Source of the DNA: a virus
IMG/VR virus record: IMGVR_UViG_3300046514_000169
Span: 1-41,914 of that record
Strand: one strand, 5' to 3'
DNA: 41,914 nt
Part shown: piece after piece, positions 4,249 to 35,152 of the stretch
Layout of the letters: every line of letters begins with the position of its first letter
Numbering within the stretch: position 1 is the first letter of the stretch
Notes under the pieces: model-generated
The model's database searches: none
The model's input: only the letters and a program-made list of their open reading frames with translations
What the model was told of the DNA's origin: nothing
Translations under genes and position numbers: made by a program

Positions 4249-6840
4249 TCATTCGACACCCCGAAACTTCAATGGCGTGTCGCCCGTGGCCTCTTCGCCA
4301 CCCCACCCTGAAGCCGCTGCGACGCTCGCTGAAACGTCGCTAGGCAGACTGTGATAGCGGCTACGGGCATGACCACCACGGGCGGTCACAAACGGCTTAC
4401 CGACGCCCTTGGCGCCCGTGATTCGCCCTCGTTGGTCACGCAACGACTCAAGAGACCCCAACTGGCGCTCACGCTCACTGATTGACCGTCGAGCCGCCCA
4501 CGCGTCACTGAGCGCCTCTTCGCGATACCACAGCGTCATGTGGTCATCAATGAAGCACAGTTGCCCGCCGTACGCCGAACGCGGGTAACCCGCTTCACGC
4601 CACGCCCACGGCAACACCGCCTTGGTCAAGATGTTGGCACTGGGGTCATAGAGCTCGGCTTGGCGGCTCACCCACGCGTCAACACGATCACGCACGCCCA
4701 CAATGCCCATGTGCTCAAGAATGCGCGCACCGACGCGCAAGACCGCCATTGAATCGTTGAAACGCCCACCGCGTTCGTCAGGGCGCAACTCGGTTACGTC
4801 ATCAACCCAGTCGAGCACTTCCAACGCCATCGACACATACCAACCGGCCAATTGCGTCAAGTCGCGTCGCCATTGCAATTGCAATTCGGTTATGTCTTCC
4901 CATTGCGAACGCGTCGGGTCTTTCAATGAGCGCCGGTCGATGGGTGACGGCACGCGTAATTTGATGGCTCGGTCACTCAATGCCTTTTCAGTTGACAACG
5001 CGTGCAAGCCTTCGGCTGACATCGTGACCGGGGCCACCAATGCGACGGTCTCTTGGTTGTGTCGGTTTTCGGCTTTCTTGCTTCGGCTACCGCCCGACGT
5101 GGCTTGTCGTATCAAATCGAATGCACCAGCGGGGTCAGTCACATCATCAACCCACACCGGCCCATTGTGGTGCGCGCTCACACGGTCACGTAGCACGGCC
5201 ATCGTGTATTCACCGTGGCCTTCGCGATTGCCCGCCAGTTGCATCATCAACGCGAAAAATCCTGTGGTCTTTCCACTTTCTGACGGCGCCTCAAGCGCCA
5301 TGAAGGGAAACAACGCCGTGCGCGTCATCAATTGCGGCTTCACGAAACACGCCGCCCACCATGAGCCATAAACCGCGCACACGTCATCATCATGAAAGGT
5401 CATGACTTCATGCAACACAGCTTTGGCCGTGTCACGGTCAGCCACGAACCCGTAGCGATACGGCGCCCATTCATTGAGCGACGGCGCTGGCCGCAAGTCA
5501 CCGAACGGTTGCGGCTCACTGTCGCCGCCCCTGATAATTCCCTCGTGCGTTATAAAGCCGTGTACGTCATCATTCCAACCCAACGCCGACACGCTTTGAT
5601 ACACGGGCGCTGATTGCGCGGTTACGTACTTGAGCAATCGCGCGGCAACTGAAGCTCGCGCGTGCGTGTCACCGATGGGTGGCACAATCGCCGCTTGTCG
5701 AGCCGCGAGCCATACCGCAAGGTCACGCGCTGACCCCAGTATGCGCCCCTCAAGCTTGCATTCGACATCGCCTCCGATAGTGTGCAACACCACGAGATAA
5801 TCCGTTGTCTCAGTGCCCTTGATCACGCCCAGTGTCGTGACATCGAAGTTGCCCCACTCAGTCATCATCGACACCTTGGCGTCTTTATCGCCCACCAATA
5901 CCGTTGTCATCAACATGTGGCCCGTGCCGATCAGCCACCCGTTGTCGTCGGCGGGTTCGCCTGACGTAATCCCACGCTCTTGCAACGATTCGACCGTGGT
6001 GCGGCCCTTGTTCTTTTCAGAATTCCACACGCTCAACACGGTCTTGATGAATTCGCCGTCATCAAGCGGCGTGCTCAACGTTCGATTGACCATGCGCATG
6101 GTGTCCATATAGGCGTTTTCGAATGGAATAGATTTGGCGTAGTGCCCCGCCACCCGCGTCAGCCAATCGTTGCGCCCGCCCACATCGGGCTTGTTGTTGA
6201 GCAAGTGACTGAGCATGGTGCGGGTGACCCCGATGCCCTCACCATTACCGTTGTCATTCCCCGCACCGAAATTCGCCGCTATGCTCGATGGCTCGGCGTT
6301 ATCGTTCCCCGCCATTCGAGCTTTTGCCGCATTGCCGCCGTCGAGTAGCCAACGCGGCGCGGGCAAGATGGCGTCAATGTCGCGCACCCACGTATAAAAA
6401 CCGCCATCGGGGTGCGGGCTTGGCGGGGTCATGACGCCGCCGCCTTCAGCCTTCACGTCAAATGACATGGTGCCTTCATGCATCGCCCATGATTCGACCT
6501 TGTCACCGGGCGCTAACGCGAACCAGTAGTGAGCGCCTTTCGCGGTCTTCACGCACGTGGTGGCCGACATCTCGGCGTCGATCACTGACCGCCAAAATGT
6601 TTCGGCGTCTTTACTGTCACAGTCAAGAACAATCAGCGAGCTGATGGTCCCCGTGCATGTCCAAATGCCGACGTAACTACTGCCTGTGCCCCACCAACTG
6701 TCAACCATCGATGCTGATGGTTGTGATTGATATTCACGCCATGACGGCAAGCCCGGTGCTTTCTTGCCACGTCGCGTTGGCAACGGATTGAAGCCCAGTG
6801 CGGCTAGTCGCCGTGCCTCTTCGCGAACACTTGCCACCAC
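4249..6840 (-). CDS. AEP primase-polymerase / helicase
   Basis: The 863-residue protein combines an N-terminal bifunctional primase-polymerase domain with a C-terminal NTPase. The AEP catalytic pair is in SLIVLDCDS (D73, D75), the sugar-binding His in TAKGAHYWFA (H104), and the third motif near FDVKAEGGG (D128). A PriCT-like helical region follows around 205-285. The C-terminal domain has a Walker A motif APSESGKTT (518-526) and Walker B PVWVDDVTD (D565/D566), as in phage SF3/DUF927-type helicases. It would prime and unwind DNA at the fork with the neighbouring polymerase. The start is GTG 6840 or the adjacent GTG 6837; AGGTG precedes them. Confidence 0.88.
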   Translation of the reverse strand: MVASVREEARRLAALGFNPLPTRRGKKAPGLPSWREYQSQPSASMVDSWWGTGSSYVGIWTCTGTISSLIVLDCDSKDAETFWRSVIDAEMSATTCVKTAKGAHYWFALAPGDKVESWAMHEGTMSFDVKAEGGGVMTPPSPHPDGGFYTWVRDIDAILPAPRWLLDGGNAAKARMAGNDNAEPSSIAANFGAGNDNGNGEGIGVTRTMLSHLLNNKPDVGGRNDWLTRVAGHYAKSIPFENAYMDTMRMVNRTLSTPLDDGEFIKTVLSVWNSEKNKGRTTVESLQERGITSGEPADDNGWLIGTGHMLMTTVLVGDKDAKVSMMTEWGNFDVTTLGVIKGTETTDYLVVLHTIGGDVECKLEGRILGSARDLAVWLAARQAAIVPPIGDTHARASVAARLLKYVTAQSAPVYQSVSALGWNDDVHGFITHEGIIRGGDSEPQPFGDLRPAPSLNEWAPYRYGFVADRDTAKAVLHEVMTFHDDDVCAVYGSWWAACFVKPQLMTRTALFPFMALEAPSESGKTTGFFALMMQLAGNREGHGEYTMAVLRDRVSAHHNGPVWVDDVTDPAGAFDLIRQATSGGSRSKKAENRHNQETVALVAPVTMSAEGLHALSTEKALSDRAIKLRVPSPIDRRSLKDPTRSQWEDITELQLQWRRDLTQLAGWYVSMALEVLDWVDDVTELRPDERGGRFNDSMAVLRVGARILEHMGIVGVRDRVDAWVSRQAELYDPSANILTKAVLPWAWREAGYPRSAYGGQLCFIDDHMTLWYREEALSDAWAARRSISERERQLGSLESLRDQRGRITGAKGVGKPFVTARGGHARSRYHSLPSDVSASVAAASGWGGEEATGDTPLKFRGVE

Positions 6841-7961: not shown

Positions 7962-8860
7962 GACGCCATCGCTTTCGCGCCCTTGAGCGGCGGGGGCGCG
8001 GTCGTTGTGGTCTTGGGCGGGGCCAATGCGGCGTCGAGCTCTTCAGCCTTGGTCGAATCGATGCCCATGCGCGCGAATTCGCGTTGCATGTCAGCGTCAT
8101 CATCAAGGGTCAGGTCACCATTGACGTAGGCAATGATGCGGTCAGCGCTCGGGTTGATGAGTCGCGGGGGCAACATGTGGAAACGGTCACCACCTTCATA
8201 CAAATCAACGGCGCGAAACGTGCCCCAATAGTTCGGCTCGGCTTGGCCGCTGACGCTTTCGCACGTGGTGTGACAGACAATGTCAACGTAGCCGAGCAAG
8301 TCACTCGACAACTTCGGCGTCATGTCCGGGCGGTAACTGATTAGCCCAGTGGCCTTGTCGGTATCGCGTTGCTCAAGGGCCACGAAAATGACGTGCGCCT
8401 TGGCGTCGCGAAAGCCGCGAAACAACTTGCGCATTTGCGTGGTGTTGTCGCCGTAGTCATCGACTTGCATTGAATACTTGTCGCGGTTCTTGCCCGCCGC
8501 GTTCGCACGATCACGATTCGCGTTGGCAATCTCTTCAAGCAATTTCTTGTGCAACTCAGTGGCCGAGTCAACCACCAACGCATCGGGTGGCGAAGTCAGG
8601 CATTCGAACATCAGCGCTTCAATGGCCGCGTCGGTAATTTCGTCGTGCACGTCGATCTTGTCAACGGGCACGCCGAAGTAGTTGATGAGTGGCGGCGCCT
8701 TCAATCCACTTTCACAATCGACATATACAACGCGCTCAACACTGTCGAGCTTCGCCACCTGTGCCGCCGCTGTGGTCTTGCCACTCTTCGGCTTGCCGTA
8801 CATCAGGATTTTGGCAAACGTCTTTCGGTCGGCCAAACTAGTTCGCGTTACTTCGGACAT
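7958..8860 (-). CDS. Sak4-like RecA-fold ATPase (AAA_24 family)
   Basis: The 300-residue single-strand annealing/recombination ATPase has Walker A YGKPKSGKTT (21-30), a conserved VVYVDCESGL strand and a Walker B-like strand DALVVDSATEL. A RecA-core glutamine/arginine region FVALEQRD follows. The C-terminus is a Pro/Thr-rich tail. Phage Sak4 proteins act with an ssDNA-binding partner, matching the genes just downstream. It overlaps the next gene by ATGA. Upstream lies a 54-nt leader with a GAAAGCGAG Shine-Dalgarno-like stretch. Confidence 0.85.
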   Translation of the reverse strand: MSEVTRTSLADRKTFAKILMYGKPKSGKTTAAAQVAKLDSVERVVYVDCESGLKAPPLINYFGVPVDKIDVHDEITDAAIEALMFECLTSPPDALVVDSATELHKKLLEEIANANRDRANAAGKNRDKYSMQVDDYGDNTTQMRKLFRGFRDAKAHVIFVALEQRDTDKATGLISYRPDMTPKLSSDLLGYVDIVCHTTCESVSGQAEPNYWGTFRAVDLYEGGDRFHMLPPRLINPSADRIIAYVNGDLTLDDDADMQREFARMGIDSTKAEELDAALAPPKTTTTAPPPLKGAKAMAS

Positions 8861-8914
8861 TTCAACTCGCTTTCGTTGGTGGTTGTGGTTGGGGTAATGA
8901 GACCTTCGACCGTA

Positions 8915-11837: not shown

Positions 11838-12026
11838 TGTGTAGGCGTCAACGATGTCGGCCATGCGCACCACTGTCATGCCGTCAGCGTTTTCGCGCAA
11901 AATATCCCACATCAAGTCAATGCGAGCTTGGTGGCGCCGCTTCGCGATATTCGCCCCCACGCGCATCGCCACCCCAAACGCAATCACGAACGCCAATGCG
12001 CTCACTACAACAATCAGCGCGGTCAT
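11829..12026 (-). CDS. small membrane protein, one TM, 65 aa
   Basis: One N-terminal hydrophobic segment (about residues 2-23) is followed by a basic patch (KRRHQAR) and a helical cytoplasmic tail ending NADGMTVVRMADIVDAYTKT. The positive-inside rule puts the tail in the cytoplasm. Its stop codon lies within the -35 hexamer of the nuclease promoter. The start overlaps no stop but is overlapped by the preceding gene's TGA. Function unknown. Confidence 0.55.
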   Translation of the reverse strand: MTALIVVVSALAFVIAFGVAMRVGANIAKRRHQARIDLMWDILRENADGMTVVRMADIVDAYTKT

Positions 12027-12163: not shown

Positions 12164-12483
12164 GGTGTCACACGAAAAGTACCAAGACCATGCGCACGTT
12201 CCCACAGGTAATTGCGTTTGACTGAGTCGTATGTTTCTTGCGTGATCGACCACGGCTCACGTGAGTTGAAATCGGGCCACCCATATATCGCGTCAGTGCC
12301 GTCATCATGGTGAAATATGCCACATGTGACAAACCCGGTGCCGTCAGATAATTCAGTACCGCCGCGTCGCACAGCCTGATTGTTGAAACGGCACAACGAA
12401 TAACGCATTACGCAACACAATGGAAAGCCCGACATGTGCCCATATTTGAAGTCGAGCCATCGCATTTTGATTGCAAGTATCAC
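12160..12483 (-). CDS. hypothetical protein, 107 aa
   Basis: GTG 12483 is chosen because it overlaps the upstream stop as GTGA; ATG 12465 is the alternative. The product contains a cysteine-rich N-terminal part (FPLCCVMRYSLCRFN), a loop FVTCGIFHHDDG and aromatic residues (YGWPDFNSREPW). I do not recognise a family. Confidence 0.5.
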   Translation of the reverse strand: MILAIKMRWLDFKYGHMSGFPLCCVMRYSLCRFNNQAVRRGGTELSDGTGFVTCGIFHHDDGTDAIYGWPDFNSREPWSITQETYDSVKRNYLWERAHGLGTFRVTP

Positions 12484-13055
12484 GGTGTCAACCTTGACAA
12501 CAACGTGCGCAATGCCGAGCTGGCGGCATACCCCGTGCCTTCGCATTCTTGACACCCGACGATTTCGTGAACGCCCATATATTCAACGCCTGACGCCTCA
12601 CCACCCGTGCCTTGGCACACCTCACACAACGCCAATGGGTTGGCAATGAGCGCTTCGATGGCGTCGATGTCGATGCCGCACGACGGGCATATAACAGTTC
12701 GCGAAAAGGGCGCCGTCAAAGTTGTGTATGTCGTCGTGATAAAACCACGCCCGCCGCAATCAGCACAGGTGCCACGTATTATTTCATTCAATTGGTCAAC
12801 AATTGATGCGACATGCGGCAATACGCGTTCTTTGAAATGCGCGCGCTCGCGGCGCTCAGTCTCACTTATAGCGTTTGCCGCTTTACCCGTGCCCGCGCAA
12901 TCGGGGCACGTCACGCGCAATTCATCGTCGCCCGCCATGACATCAGGGGTGGCGCCCCGGCCATTGCACGAGGGGCATGGGGCAAATGGACAATCGCCAG
13001 CATGGGCCAAATCGCCATTGACATCGTCAAGGCCACAACCAAGACATTTACTCAC
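12480..13055 (-). CDS. multi-repeat DnaJ-type zinc-finger protein, 191 aa
   Basis: The protein carries five CxxCxGxG units (CPSCNGRG, CPDCAGTG, CADCGGRG, CEVCQGTG, CQECEGTG) plus CLGCG and CPSCG, with a helical spacer in the middle (ETERRERAHFKERVLPHV). DnaJ has four such repeats; no J domain or substrate-binding barrel is present. GTG 13055 has AGGTGGG upstream and overlaps the HTH gene's stop. It may be a zinc-dependent adaptor or RNA/DNA-binding scaffold; the function is unknown. Confidence 0.6.
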   Translation of the reverse strand: MSKCLGCGLDDVNGDLAHAGDCPFAPCPSCNGRGATPDVMAGDDELRVTCPDCAGTGKAANAISETERRERAHFKERVLPHVASIVDQLNEIIRGTCADCGGRGFITTTYTTLTAPFSRTVICPSCGIDIDAIEALIANPLALCEVCQGTGGEASGVEYMGVHEIVGCQECEGTGYAASSALRTLLSRLTP

Positions 13056-13293
13056 CGCCGTACACCCACCTGTCACCGCCCTTGACGGCATCGACGGCAT
13101 TGCACCAATTGAGCGCCGTTTGCTTATCAACGGGCACGCCCGTCAGGCTCAATTCAATGGCGATATTGCGAAAGCTGACGCCCTCACGCCGACGTTTGCG
13201 AAGCAATGTGCGAAGCGCATTGCCGCCACCCATCTCGGCATTCTTGAGCGTGAAGAGCGGGCTAATGGTCACACTGGTTGTTGATGTCGCCAT
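13048..13293 (-). CDS. small helix-turn-helix protein, 81 aa
   Basis: The ATG at 13293 has AGAAAGGG just upstream. The N-terminus is Thr/Ser-rich, followed by a basic helix (ALRTLLRKRRREG) and VSFRNIAIELSLTGVPVDKQ then TALNWCNAV, a helix-turn-helix like those of recombinase or resolvase C-terminal domains, without a catalytic domain. It probably binds DNA. The neighbouring zinc-finger gene overlaps its stop. Confidence 0.55.
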   Translation of the reverse strand: MATSTTSVTISPLFTLKNAEMGGGNALRTLLRKRRREGVSFRNIAIELSLTGVPVDKQTALNWCNAVDAVKGGDRWVYGGE

Positions 13294-14043: not shown

Positions 14044-14384
14044 CGCACACCGCCGAACTGCGCAACGTTCGCGTGAAGCGCGCATAGGCGCACGGTGCCG
14101 CGCCCGTTATCAATGGTGGTGTTGACGGGCTCGGTGCACTTGTCGCACGTCGGCGTCGCCCACTTGTTGACCATGTCTTGTGCCGCTGCCTTGGCGTCGC
14201 GCTGATTGGGGTAGCAACCCACGCCTTCATAGCTCGGCTCACTACCGCCCATGCCCTCAGTGAACATATACAGTTCAAAGCGCGCCTTGTTGTCTTTGCA
14301 TGTATCGATGCGCCATTTGCCATCAGCACTGTCATAGTGCCCCGCGCTCACGCGTTCCCACTCAATAGTGTCGGTTGACTTCAT
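14040..14384 (-). CDS. hypothetical protein with C-terminal cysteine pairs, 114 aa
   Basis: The N-terminal half is beta-rich (WERVSAGHYDSADGKWRI), followed by a helix with QRDAKAAAQDMVNKW, then CDKCTEP and RLCALH, a likely zinc site. The first 13 bases of its coding sequence (ATGAAGTCAACCG) match two leaderless cassette genes, and the 5' region belongs to a 40-bp repeat shared with the 33993 gene. It is the first gene downstream of cassette A's minus-strand unit. Confidence 0.6.
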   Translation of the reverse strand: MKSTDTIEWERVSAGHYDSADGKWRIDTCKDNKARFELYMFTEGMGGSEPSYEGVGCYPNQRDAKAAAQDMVNKWATPTCDKCTEPVNTTIDNGRGTVRLCALHANVAQFGGVR

Positions 14385-14415
14385 GATGATTCACTCGCTT
14401 TCTTGGTTGGTTGTT
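14376..14415. repeat. 40-bp cassette boundary repeat, copy A
   Basis: This block spans the start codon and leader of the 114-residue gene and matches 33985-34024 with two or three differences. In both places it separates a variable small gene (58 aa here, 70 aa there) from the next minus-strand gene. Confidence 0.75.
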
Positions 14416-14422
14416 TTTATCT

Positions 14423-14599
14423 TTAGTATCCCCACACCTTCAGGCAACGGTGACAAGTAACGCCGCGCCTCGGGTCATTGATGATCGGGTTGGGTGTCGA
14501 TGACCCGCAAGCGCTTACGCCGTTGATCATGTGGTGTGTGAGCTGGCTTTTGCCGCCCCTGATGGTGCCGTTGTTGTTGGTGTCTTGGGTTGTGGTCAT
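14423..14599 (-). CDS. cassette A minus-strand small protein, 58 aa
   Basis: This 58-codon gene starts at ATG 14599, exactly 7 nt from the TATACT of the left-going island promoter, so its mRNA should be leaderless. The N-terminus is Thr/Asn-rich (MTTTQDTNNNGTIRGGKSQ), and the C-terminus carries Cys and CHRC spaced about 20 residues apart, a possible zinc site. Function unknown. Confidence 0.65.
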   Translation of the reverse strand: MTTTQDTNNNGTIRGGKSQLTHHMINGVSACGSSTPNPIINDPRRGVTCHRCLKVWGY

Positions 14600-14765
14600 G
14601 CAGATAAGTATAGCGGGTAGCCTTACCTAACACACGTCAAAATGGCTATTTTTCAAGAATTTTTCAAATTTCTTGAAAACCCTTGCAATTACTGGGGATT
14701 GGGAGATTGAAAAAATATGTAGAAATGGCGTGTGATAGGTAAGGCTACTCGCTATACTTATTCCC
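14600..14765. promoter_or_regulatory. bidirectional leaderless promoter island A
   Basis: The left-going -10 is TATACT at 14607-14612 (minus) and the right-going -10 is TATACT at 14753-14758; each lies 7 nt from its ATG. Box elements lie at 14612-14630 (minus strand TTAGGTAAGGCTACCCGCT) and 14735-14753. The core between them (about 14637-14725) is nearly identical to island C. It contains 10-bp inverted arms TTTTCAAGAA/TTCTTGAAAA and the tract TACTGGGGATTGGG. The box matches the DtxR/IdeR consensus at 15 of 19 positions. Confidence 0.85.
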
Positions 14766-15239
14766 ATGAAGTCAACCGAACAGGAGACAACCGCAATGAC
14801 TGAGACAGTGAATCCAAAATGGCAAATGATCTTTGACCGCGACGCCAAACGAACAATCAAGACTAGGGGCGAAATTTTCCAGTCTGAAATTGACGATGAG
14901 CGCATGACCGCGCGGCCCGAGCTCTTCGACATTTTCTTAGTTGCCGTCAATGCGCAATGGCAAGAAGAGTCACCATCAGCCGCGAAGCGCGGGCGTAATC
15001 CCAAGTTTCCATATGTGCCCGTTATCAATTACATCGTGCGCGCCACTGGCGACAAGCGAACACAAAATCCCGCCAAGGGTCTCGCCTTCGCCACCCGCGA
15101 AGAGGCTGTGGCAAAGGCGCAAAGTTACATCATCGGCACGCGCGAGCAAACCGCTTTCAAGATGACACTTCACCGCTACCGCGCATTGCGCGAACAGTAT
15201 GGTTTTGCCAGCGAGCTGAAAGATGTGGTGGCGGTATGA
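14766..15239 (+). CDS. cassette A plus-strand protein, 157 aa
   Basis: This is one of the few plus-strand genes. ATG 14766 is 7 nt from TATACT, so the transcript should be leaderless; a second ATG 10 codons later is the alternative. The protein is basic and helical, with WQMIFDRDAKRTIKTRG near the N-terminus and many Arg/Lys, suggesting nucleic-acid or protein binding. No family is recognised. It is coupled by ATGA to the following membrane peptide. Being opposite to the main operons and under a shared promoter, it behaves like a moron gene. Confidence 0.65.
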   Translation: MKSTEQETTAMTETVNPKWQMIFDRDAKRTIKTRGEIFQSEIDDERMTARPELFDIFLVAVNAQWQEESPSAAKRGRNPKFPYVPVINYIVRATGDKRTQNPAKGLAFATREEAVAKAQSYIIGTREQTAFKMTLHRYRALREQYGFASELKDVVAV

Positions 15240-27270: not shown

Positions 27271-27558
27271 CTACTTGTCTCCCATCAAGTCAGCGAGCAT
27301 CGCGGCACGCTCTTCATCGGTCAAGGTTGACCCCGCAAACGGGTTACTAGCGTCAAAGCCGCGTGACTTTTGGCTACGGGTCTTGCCGCTACGGTGAGCG
27401 GCGCACAGCGTGTCGCCATCGCGGCGCAATCTGTCACATTGTTGGTCATTGATAATGCCTTTTTCGTGGCCCCAGTGTTGGCAACGAAATTCATCAAGCG
27501 GCAAAAGGCCAAAACGGTCATAACGGGGGTCTTGCTTGCGGTCTTCGCGTGTGGTCAT
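27271..27558 (-). CDS. cassette B minus-strand protein, 95 aa
   Basis: ATG 27558 is 7 nt from the left-going TATACT, so the mRNA should be leaderless; a longer in-frame start (27594) would include the promoter and was rejected. The protein is charged (MTTREDRKQDPRYDRFG) with RCQHWGH and LCAAHRSG, a possible Cys/His metal site, and a C-terminal acidic helix (DEERAAMLADLMGDK). The order of Cys and His recalls HNH-like zinc knuckles, but no catalytic motif is seen. Confidence 0.65.
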   Translation of the reverse strand: MTTREDRKQDPRYDRFGLLPLDEFRCQHWGHEKGIINDQQCDRLRRDGDTLCAAHRSGKTRSQKSRGFDASNPFAGSTLTDEERAAMLADLMGDK

Positions 27559-27722
27559 GGGAATAAGTATAACGGGTAGCCTTACCAATTGCAAACCAAT
27601 TCAGCATTTTTTCAAATTTCTTGAAAACCCTTGCAATTACTGGGGATTGGGGGATTGAAAAATTTAGTCGAAATTCGACTTTTGACGTGTGTTAGGTAAG
27701 GCTACCCGCTATACTTATTGGC
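27559..27722. promoter_or_regulatory. bidirectional leaderless promoter island B
   Basis: TATACT elements are at 27566-27571 (minus) and 27710-27715 (plus), each 7 nt from ATG. The box on the plus strand, 27692-27710, is exactly TTAGGTAAGGCTACCCGCT; the minus copy spans 27571-27589. The core (27606-27665) matches islands A and C but lacks the left arm of their 10-bp inverted repeat. A separate 7-bp dyad AGTCGAA/TTCGACT (27666-27680) is unique to this island. Confidence 0.85.
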
Positions 27723-28139
27723 ATGACCACAACCAAGCGATTTCAATGCAAGGCGTGTAAGCGCCGCTTCGCCACTCGCGATGGCGCGCAAGCTCACATC
27801 ATGTCAAAGCACGTGCACAACGGCCAAACCTTTCGCTGGTTGTCACGCAATGATGACGGCGCCATTGTCGCCCACGTCGATAGCAATGCTGACGGTCAAT
27901 ACGAAAATGACCCCGATGAGCGCGCCGCGCAAAAGTGGTATGTGTTTTGCGATGAGCACAATATGTGCATTGGCGTACCGCGCGCCAACCAAGCTGAATA
28001 TATGGCCGATCATCGCGAAAGTTTTTGTGAAGTTTGCACAGGTGCGTCACCGTATTGCGTGACGTGCGCCATTGCCCTCGCGCCGTGGAATGTTGAAGAG
28101 CACCTTGCACACGGCACCGTGTTGAATGCGGGCGCCTGA
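27723..28139 (+). CDS. cassette B C2H2 zinc-finger protein, 138 aa
   Basis: The N-terminus has a classical C2H2 finger, C9-x2-C12-x12-H25-x4-H30, in FQCKACKRRFATRDGAQAH. This is the eukaryote-like spacing, not the shorter Ros/MucR form. Later cysteine groups (VFCDEHNMC, FCEVCTG, YCVTC) suggest a second zinc site. ATG 27723 is leaderless, 7 nt from TATACT, and the codons start ATGACCACAACC as in other cassette genes. It could bind DNA or protein. It is followed by the next gene with a TGATG overlap. Confidence 0.7.
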   Translation: MTTTKRFQCKACKRRFATRDGAQAHIMSKHVHNGQTFRWLSRNDDGAIVAHVDSNADGQYENDPDERAAQKWYVFCDEHNMCIGVPRANQAEYMADHRESFCEVCTGASPYCVTCAIALAPWNVEEHLAHGTVLNAGA

Positions 28140-33604: not shown

Positions 33605-33993
33605 TAGCGCTCACCAACTATTGATGCCGATGATTCATTGCCGTACCATGCCGAATTGCGGCGCTCGGCTTGTTCGGTGCGACGTGCGCCCGCAAGGTGG
33701 CGCCCACACAATACTTCGCCACACTTTGATGTGCGGCGACAACGTACCTTCACGGTGCGATATGCACCGTGATCGCCAACAGGCGTCATACCTTCGCAAC
33801 GGCGAAACTGAAATCTAAGTGTGGCGCACTCAACGGCACTAAACAGGCGCGGCTCATCTTCAAGAGTGCGCACGTCCGCAATATCCACGTCATTGTCATC
33901 AACTCGAAGGTCGATGATCTTGGCGCTCACGATTTTACCGGCCAGTCTGACGCGCACAATGTCGCCCAGTTCAAACGATTCAAATGACTTCAT
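33604..33993 (-). CDS. hypothetical protein, 129 aa
   Basis: The N-terminal half is an SH3/KOW-like beta domain (FELGDIVRVRLAGKIVSAKI). The middle carries RRCEGMTPVGDHG, and the C-terminal third has CRRTSKCGEVLCGRH, a cysteine-rich basic zinc-like region. The start codon and leader belong to the 40-bp repeat shared with the 14384 gene. It may bind nucleic acid. Confidence 0.6.
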   Translation of the reverse strand: MKSFESFELGDIVRVRLAGKIVSAKIIDLRVDDNDVDIADVRTLEDEPRLFSAVECATLRFQFRRCEGMTPVGDHGAYRTVKVRCRRTSKCGEVLCGRHLAGARRTEQAERRNSAWYGNESSASIVGER

Positions 33994-34024
33994 GATGATT
34001 CACCCGCTTTCTTGGTTAGTTGTT
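33985..34024. repeat. 40-bp cassette boundary repeat, copy C
   Basis: This matches 14376-14415 with two or three differences. It overlaps the start of the 129-residue gene and the end of the 70-residue cassette C gene. Confidence 0.75.
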
Positions 34025-34212
34025 GTTGTGTGCTTCGGGAGTCGCCCGCATGTTTTCGTGTCAATGTTTGCACCGTACATGCCATTCAAAAATTTCTTGG
34101 CGCCACACACGGGGCAATAGCCAAAGCCTGTGACTCGCTCATGCTCATTGACTATCGACTTGACCAATGCGCCCGTACCGGCGCACAAGCTCTTAGTTGC
34201 GGTTGACTTCAT
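34000..34212 (-). CDS. cassette C minus-strand protein, 70 aa
   Basis: ATG 34212 is 7 nt from the left-going TATACT. A longer in-frame start (34437) would place the protein across the promoter island and was rejected. The protein starts MKSTATKSLCAG and contains YCPVCGAKK around residue 33 and CGRLPKH at 55-61, a zinc-ribbon-like pattern. The first bases ATGAAGTCAACCG match the cassette A plus-strand gene. Confidence 0.65.
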   Translation of the reverse strand: MKSTATKSLCAGTGALVKSIVNEHERVTGFGYCPVCGAKKFLNGMYGANIDTKTCGRLPKHTTTTNQESG

Positions 34213-34387
34213 GTAGGTAAGTATAGGGGTGAGCCTTACTTCATGTACGTCAAAATGGCTATTTTTCAAGAATTTTTCAAATTTCTTGAAAACCCTTGCA
34301 ATTACTGGGGATTGGGAGATTGAAAAAATATGTAGAAAAAGGGCGTTTGGCGTGCATGGGATAAGGCTACCCGTTATACTTATTGGC
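34213..34387. promoter_or_regulatory. bidirectional leaderless promoter island C
   Basis: TATACT lies at 34220-34225 (minus) and 34375-34380 (plus), each 7 nt from its ATG. The boxes are at 34225-34243 (minus strand TGAAGTAAGGCTCACCCCT) and 34357-34375. The core from about 34250 to 34340 is nearly identical to island A, including the TTTTCAAGAA/TTCTTGAAAA inverted repeat. Confidence 0.85.
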
Positions 34388-35152
34388 ATGACCACAACCA
34401 CCACACCAAGCAATGCCCATGAAGTTGCCGTTGACACAAAGATTGCCGCCGCTTATTGCATCAAGCACGAAGCTGTCGCAACCGCCGCCAACGCCGCCAA
34501 GATGGTGCAAAGCCTTATCCCGACAAACTTGCTCGCCAAGGTTCGTTTCGAATCCGAGCGCCGCCCCGGTCACATGGCTGACGGCACATACATGAGCGCT
34601 GACGATGTTGTTGCCGCTCTTGCTTCGGGCAAGTTTGAAGTTTCGCTCGCCAAGCGTCACAACGCTGATGACCGCATTGCGCGTTACACCAGTGCCGTTG
34701 CCGCCCGTCAAATTGCCAGCGACAACTACGCCGCCGAAGCCAAGAACTATGGTGGCTGGTCACGGTTCTTTCTTGTTGTCTCATCGGTTGGTGGACACGT
34801 TCACAGTTCAATGGATTGCTCAACATGCAACAACGGCAAAGACTTCACCGACTTCAACTGGTTGCCCGAGCTCAGTGGCTTGACTGAGGCTGACGCCGTT
34901 GCGTCACAAGGCGCGATTCTGTGCACCGTGTGTTACCCGAGTGCGCCGATTCACTTCACCAACGCTGCCGAGCTCGCCGCGCAAGCCAAGGCTGACGCCA
35001 GTTGCAAGGGCTCACTGACCTACAACTACAACCGCGAGACCGCCCGCACCGGCTATGCCTACGGCAACGCCGCCACATGCAACGACTGTGGCGCACGCGT
35101 CACCTTGACCAAGAGCGACAAAATGCGCCGTCACAACAAGGTGGCGTCATGA
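34388..35152 (+). CDS. cassette C plus-strand cysteine protein, 254 aa
   Basis: The start is ATG 34388, 7 nt from TATACT and with the shared ATGACCACAACC. A longer in-frame start from 34229 runs through the promoter and was rejected. The N-terminal half is Ala-rich and helical; the second half has paired cysteines: C144/C147 (SSMDCSTC), C179/C182 (LCTVCYPSAP), and C231/C234 (CNDCG). The middle WLPELSGLTEADAVAS block recalls an actinophage family of unknown function. It is coupled by ATGA to the next gene. Confidence 0.7.
   Translation: MTTTTTPSNAHEVAVDTKIAAAYCIKHEAVATAANAAKMVQSLIPTNLLAKVRFESERRPGHMADGTYMSADDVVAALASGKFEVSLAKRHNADDRIARYTSAVAARQIASDNYAAEAKNYGGWSRFFLVVSSVGGHVHSSMDCSTCNNGKDFTDFNWLPELSGLTEADAVASQGAILCTVCYPSAPIHFTNAAELAAQAKADASCKGSLTYNYNRETARTGYAYGNAATCNDCGARVTLTKSDKMRRHNKVAS

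Follow-up and report, generated by a model that had tools for sequence, protein, structure and literature searches.

Three copies of one bidirectional cassette, each about 165-175 bp long, provide an uncultured tailed phage with six gene starts at which the hexamer TATACT stands exactly 7 nt before an ATG and is followed, behind that ATG, by codons rich in A and C. The spacing, the repeat structure, the sequence conservation and the reappearance of A/C-rich start blocks in other phages are direct observations, and leaderless transcription is the natural, well-supported reading of the six sites. The account that we favour, with moderate confidence, is that the three cassettes drive divergent operons, that polymerase starts at the A of ATG, and that the A/C-rich first codons favour ribosome binding.

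Phage genome and cassette architecture

The window, meaning the whole stretch of DNA analysed, corresponds to a single IMG/VR virus record, 41,914 bases long and with a GC content of 55%. Family matches, nearly all to genes on the minus strand, cover a helicase, primase/polymerase, DNA polymerase, exonuclease, Sak4-like protein, tape measure, major capsid, portal and terminase, the Sak4-like protein and the exonuclease (phrog_1218) being recombination proteins. Among 50,697 named phages, the first 25 kb have no near DNA relative, and matches to 27.4-34.8 kb are short only (67-71 bases). The actinobacterial setting assumed in the original prediction is supported by the primase/polymerase, for which 147 of 148 matching phage records are actinophages by name; helicase matches are mostly actinophages and portal matches are mixed, and the host is probably an actinobacterium. 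Two further contigs of 14.3 kb (G002) and 23.8 kb (G001, L087/L080) belong to the same phage. G001 matches both window ends at 99.99-100% and links them through about 9 kb of further sequence, which makes a total phage length of around 51 kb probable; the added segment holds a 1467-aa ORF, and no cassette motif was found in it. A candidate regulator of the long operons is encoded at 12480-13130 (-); this protein has a zinc domain of the DnaJ type (CXXCXGXG, Pfam) and, in PHROGs, a match to Q-like antitermination (5e-07).

TATACT occurs six times on the two strands of the window and is followed every time by an ATG 7 nt downstream, within the distance of about 6-8 nt between -10 box and ATG that marks leaderless starts, whereas 200 dinucleotide shuffles gave on average 2.15 occurrences of the hexamer and 0.02 of TATACT-N7-ATG (maximum 1). 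The predicted spacing and the leaderless geometry are therefore borne out, but the six starts, all of them present, are not six independent cases, being the two ends of three copies of one cassette (intergenic regions of 166, 164 and 175 bp; Table 1). Each site reads TATACTTA-N4-C-ATGA, and inspection by eye revealed no Shine-Dalgarno (SD) sequence ahead of these ATGs, whereas GAAAGCGAG-like sites do occur at other starts of the phage.

The cassettes form repeat families that are 91% alike over 138 nt (D1), 85% over 136 nt (D3) and 96% over 55 nt (I2), and they share a 34-nt core that is identical and in the same orientation in all three. Outward from this core follow, in order, TTGAAAAA tracts, a weakly kept TTGRCG, a variable stretch, GTAAGGCT, TATACTTA, four variable nucleotides, a C, the ATG and codons 2-4, with GTAAGGCT beginning 14 nt upstream of TATACT at five of the six sites and replaced by ATAAGGCT at the sixth. 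Identity over the six sites amounts to 100% in TATACTTA, 96% in GTAAGGCT, 56% from -35 to -28, 40% from -5 to -2, 75% in codons 2-4, 24% in codons 5-7 and 31% in codons 8-10; the conservation of the first codons is thus as predicted, but it also extends to GTAAGGCT and to the core between the promoters. A TTGACA-like -35 hexamer 16-18 nt before the -10 box, as in sigma-70/sigma-A promoters, was found by consensus scan at one site only, 27558(-), and TTGRCG-like hexamers sit 22 nt upstream of TATACT. The left 138 nt of C1 and C3 are 91% alike, yet the start blocks on that side differ, and the C1 left arm (14588-14642) is 96% complementary over 55 nt to the C2 right arm (27680-27734), ending at the 12-mer; for these reasons, arms have probably been exchanged between cassettes. 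The pattern GTAAGGCTACCC has 20 matches in the window at up to 3 mismatches against 12.7 expected, and matches with up to 2 mismatches lie only at the six cassette sites; the idea of GTAAGGCT as an operator spread genome-wide was rejected.

In every rightward unit the leaderless ORF is followed by an overlapping second ORF (15236, 28139, 35149). The largest leaderless gene, at 34388-35152 (+), has a mycobacteriophage homologue that sits behind SAS, a conserved RBS-like 13-mer upstream of ATG in cluster K; the gene family is shared, the start signal is not. On the leftward side, the second genes at 14384(-) and 33993(-) stand without a TATACT promoter behind GAAAGCG(A/G)G, and both start with ATGAAGTCA. 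A 43-nt repeat, 93% alike between 14376-14418 and 33985-34027 (-), spans their ribosome-binding region and start, with a weaker third copy at 8848-8890. The notion that all plus-strand ORFs are cassette-driven found no clean support in greedy ORF tiling and is not claimed.

Table 1. Cassettes, their elements and the genes at their ends in the window.
Feature	Position	Strand	Remarks
Predicted leaderless ORF, 58 aa, MTTTQDTN...	14423-14599	-	without family match
Predicted leaderless ORF, 157 aa, MKSTEQ...	14766-15239	+	without PHROG match
Predicted leaderless ORF, 95 aa, MTTRED...	27271-27558	-	upstream of tail genes
Predicted leaderless ORF, 138 aa, MTTTKRFQC...	27723-28139	+	C2H2-like match, sub-threshold
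Predicted leaderless ORF, 70 aa, MKSTATK..., cysteine-containing	34000-34212	-	family matches sub-threshold only
Predicted leaderless ORF, 254 aa, MTTTTTPS...	34388-35152	+	phrog_2433 (1.2e-48); homologous to mycobacteriophage genes
Leadered second-gene start carrying ATGAAGTCAACC (gene at 14384)	14376-14418	-	43-nt repeat D5
Putative -10 box TATACT	14753-14758	+	7 nt before ATG 14766
Putative -10 box TATACT	14607-14612	-	7 nt before ATG 14599
Putative -10 box TATACT	27710-27715	+	7 nt before ATG 27723
Putative -10 box TATACT	27566-27571	-	7 nt before ATG 27558
Putative -10 box TATACT	34375-34380	+	7 nt before ATG 34388
Putative -10 box TATACT	34220-34225	-	7 nt before ATG 34212
Cassette C1 (predicted bidirectional promoter)	14600-14765		ATGs 14599(-)/14766(+); repeats D1, D2, D4, I4; alignment
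Cassette C2 (predicted bidirectional promoter)	27559-27722		ATGs 27558(-)/27723(+); repeats D2, D3, D4, I2, I6; alignment
Cassette C3 (predicted bidirectional promoter)	34213-34387		ATGs 34212(-)/34388(+); repeats D1, D2, D3, D4; alignment
Invariant core TTCTTGAAAACCCTTGCAATTACTGGGGATTGGG, copy 1	14670-14703	+	exact match at three places
Invariant core, copy 2	27618-27651	+	exact match
Invariant core, copy 3	34283-34316	+	exact match
GTAAGGCT box, proposed regulator site at -27 to -20	14739-14746	+	
GTAAGGCT box	14619-14626	-	
GTAAGGCT box	27696-27703	+	
GTAAGGCT box	27578-27585	-	
ATAAGGCT box	34361-34368	+	
GTAAGGCT box	34232-34239	-	

Composition of the first codons

Two 12-mers had been predicted to open the six coding sequences, and this holds insofar as the first 12 nt are ATGACCACAACC at three starts (14599, 27723, 34388), ATGACCACACGC at one (27558) and ATGAAGTCAACC at two (14766, 34212); ATGAAGTCAACC, however, contains G and T and also opens the leadered gene at 14384(-). 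The A/C fraction of codons 2-4 is 0.91 at the six sites (0.78-1.0) against 0.59 at 29 other ATG starts, and the first 45 nt have a mean MFE of -6.1 kcal/mol against -8.5 at the same controls, although at two of the six 5' ends (-8.4, -12.1) folding is as strong as in the controls. For both measures 30 control starts had been listed, of which one without ATG was skipped.

At 23 chosen starts from five genomes, the threonine codons within codons 2-4 comprise 41 ACC, 6 ACA, 3 ACT and no ACG (n = 50); ACG accounts for 36-50% of threonine codons in long ORFs of those genomes. With identical blocks collapsed per family, 26 threonine codons are left, again without ACG. The A/C fraction of codons 2-4 is 0.86 at the 23 starts versus 0.57 at 45 SD-led starts of the same genomes. 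The corresponding p values (A/C, 7e-7; ACG, 0.009) count every copy as an independent case and so are too small, and the counts likewise overstate independence, as starts in the window and in the other phages are duplicated within each genome. Six weaker -10/start pairs were left out of the 23 (G004 19926; G010 16470, 47212; G011 28220; G012 25417, 22236); their A/C fraction is 0.59, and that of all 29 starts 0.80. The pattern suggests that selection acts at the level of the RNA and not of the peptide.

Comparable starts in other phages

A distant relative, G004, found via a capsid protein 44% identical and not by motif, has five leaderless-type starts behind an unrelated repeated promoter (TTGACA-17-TATAAT/TATACT/TAAACT), all with N7 before the ATG. 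Its start blocks, which stand before different proteins, are ATGACCACCACC (three) or ATGAACACCACC (two), that is, ATG-A(C/A)C-ACC-ACC. A sixth promoter copy stands before a start that has an SD-like leader and no start block, and the promoter has no match in named phages. The nearer relative G003 (capsid 65%) carries TTGACA-17-TAAACT and AAGGAG, a leadered arrangement, at the apparently equivalent place; a long ORF of G003 (1698 aa, L089:3100-6500) holds numerous repeats, most of them at intervals that are multiples of about 60 nt.

Across IMG/VR, TATAAT-N{2,16}-ATGACCACCACC gave 57 matches, seven of them in contigs with a GC fraction of at least 0.5 (gap of 7 in five, 6 in one and 3 in one). 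Motif matches led to two more groups with repeated or multiple leaderless-looking starts, G010/G011 and G012, which are partly ascertained, having been found by motif. A 626-aa protein of G010 has no match in named phages, the portal-like protein of G012 resembles those of Gordonia, Tsukamurella and Rhodococcus phages, and portal matches of G004 are mixed; since the protein matches are absent, varied or mixed, the hosts of these three are uncertain. At 12009 (-), G010 also has a leaderless-looking start with M-K-S, TACAAT-N7-ATGAAGTCGGTT.

Named actinophages provide a narrower picture: TANANT-N7-ATGAMCACM was found in none of 15, and a scan of 18 yielded only six candidate leaderless starts, with a mean A/C fraction of 0.63 for those at spacing 6 and of 0.74 for those at spacing 7, under settings that excluded ORFs below 60 codons as well as starts lying over 40 codons inside an open frame, and that would remove three of the six window sites. 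Gordonia phage GMA6 belonged to the 15-phage motif scan and not to the 18-phage scan, and Gray was present as a 300-base stub only.

The window cassette itself has no match in other IMG/VR phages beyond the same phage. AAGGCT-N6-TATACT-N7-ATG returned 73 stretches, of which by sequence context only L077 is real, and L077/L081 is the phage of the window; GTAAGGCTACCCGNTATANT likewise matched only in L077. With TATANT-N7-ATGACCACAAC, 17 stretches including L077 were obtained, and among the 16 inspected L091 (GC 0.49, long ORF) looks leaderless. The ATGAAGTC variant gave 52 stretches, 51 of which were inspected (L077 left out), with one contig of note at GC 0.66, the unrelated L282, where TTGACA-16-TATACT-N7-ATGAAGTCCACCACA at 5424-5460 resembles the second start block of the window; this match is anecdotal, lying at about chance level by rough estimate. 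TATACT-N7-ATGACCACAACC as a common host signal was rejected: a search of 84,980 species genomes gave 2 matches, one in Meiothermus and one in a Flavobacteriales MAG.

The further prediction, that the first codons are part of the translation signal, consequently meets with a divided outcome. Inside the window the evidence is confounded by cassette copying and by the 12-mer at a leadered start, and the conservation of the block could be inherited from the duplicated cassette. Outside it, the G004 start block, the avoidance of ACG and the effect of CA repeats in E. coli speak for the prediction, while the absence of the motif from the 15 named actinophages, the different codons in cluster O and the leadered start of G003 limit its generality.

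Mechanism, alternatives and known systems

From the sequence we infer a start point, a host sigma factor, a regulator and a translational effect, which would act together as follows. Host RNA polymerase with the primary sigma factor would recognise TATACT and initiate at the A of ATG, yielding six leaderless mRNAs. A regulator bound at GTAAGGCT, and perhaps also at the invariant core, would probably set the timing for all six at once; it is suggested because the six sites share no normal -35 and GTAAGGCT is fixed in the spacer. The first codons, rich in A and C and poor in G, would probably leave the 5' end open and help ribosomes to bind at the terminal AUG.

The first codons might instead be the mere edge of a duplicated cassette, pasted before unrelated genes with 12 nt attached and under no selection. 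Cassettes 85-91% alike over about 136-138 nt, with exchanged arms whose complementarity ends at the 12-mer, are consistent with such an origin, which we nonetheless judge rather unlikely: the same arms have diverged elsewhere (from -35 to -28 and from -5 to -2) while codons 2-4 keep their 75%, the likeness of all six ends stops at about the same codon, G004 has a similar block behind an unrelated promoter, and copying alone does not predict ACG avoidance across unrelated phages. That last point, together with recurrence in other phages with other promoters, also makes it improbable that the blocks are boundary homology for module shuffling by a phage recombinase rather than a translation signal; the recombination proteins, the apparent exchange of arms and the presence of ATGAAGTCAACC at leadered start 14384, within the 43-nt repeat common to 33993, would suit that role, but the blocks measure only 12 nt and are A/C-biased.

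Two alternatives concern the promoters. If TATACT were not the -10 box, transcription would start further upstream and the mRNAs would be leadered, as the lack of a normal common -35 and the TTGRCG-like hexamers might suggest; with TATACTTA invariant and SD-like sequences seen by eye at other phage starts but not at these six, this is very improbable. Iron control by a host DtxR/IdeR-type repressor at TTAGGTAAGGCTACCC is scarcely to be expected. Two of the six sites match the DtxR consensus at 14 of 19 positions, of which shuffles give 0.15 per window, but a third such match lies outside the cassettes (16791), the remaining four sites comprise two with 12 matching positions and two outside the 20 matches listed, and the dyad typical of DtxR/IdeR sites is not kept at all sites, only the asymmetric GTAAGGCT being conserved.

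Beyond the favoured account of leaderless divergent operons with a ribosome-favouring start block, we tentatively advance a broader proposal, the balance being somewhat against it: several unrelated phage groups of high-GC hosts may independently have fixed an A/C-only start box (ATG-ACC-ACM-ACC) directly behind repeated leaderless promoters; this box, lying within the coding sequence, would act at RNA level as a portable signal for ribosome recruitment, replace the Shine-Dalgarno sequence and let one cassette express any gene behind it. Natural promoters that occur in several copies per genome, standing before unrelated genes yet sharing their first codons, offer material for testing how ribosomes choose leaderless mRNAs in actinobacteria and whether anything beyond the 5'-terminal AUG plays a role; in addition, the cassette might be used as a small part for leaderless expression in two directions. 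Both leaderless actinobacterial genes and divergent leaderless actinophage promoters are already known, and no description of repeated leaderless phage promoters with conserved first codons was found in the literature searched, most subscription journals and bioRxiv lying outside its scope. Downstream CA repeats were reportedly the subject of E. coli work by Martin-Farmer and Janssen in 1999.

As for known systems, a TANNNT about 12 bp upstream of the start codon is reported to mark leaderless genes in Actinobacteria, where they exceed 20% of genes (PMC3160421), and in C. glutamicum 33% of mRNAs are given as leaderless, with 3-11 nt between -10 box and transcription start (PMC3890552). The window sites share with these genes and with those of a mycobacterial survey (PMC4633059) a TANNNT about 7 nt before the ATG and no SD, but the part of that survey drawn on here reports no new motif specific to leaderless genes, whereas the window has conserved codons 2-4. 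In cluster O mycobacteriophages, the sigma-A-like promoters PL1/PR2 and PL2 likewise diverge within an intergenic region rich in A and T, and both are predicted to be leaderless; they differ in having a TTGACA -35, and the portion of the account used here describes no repeated cassette (PMC4351075). Firecracker gene 12, at the published leaderless PR2 position, has a CAGAAT box 7 nt before the ATG, the same spacing as in the window, but starts ATGCCGCAGACA, with codons CCG CAG ACA unlike the window block. The SAS/ESAS of cluster K, as far as described in the part of PMC11373665 drawn on, resemble the cassettes in that many gene starts carry a short conserved sequence and that repeated elements with promoters lie upstream. 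SAS, however, is ribosome-binding-site-like and lies upstream of the ATG, so that the starts are leadered and the conservation is not in the codons; in Wintermute, ggataggagccc precedes the ATG of the gene homologous to that at 34388, and SAS is absent before the six window ATGs. The closest parallel to the start block itself comes from E. coli, where, according to the section of a review drawn on here (PMC9031893), CA repeats placed directly behind the start codon raise leaderless translation strongly, and to which the window would add natural A/C-rich blocks in phage genes.
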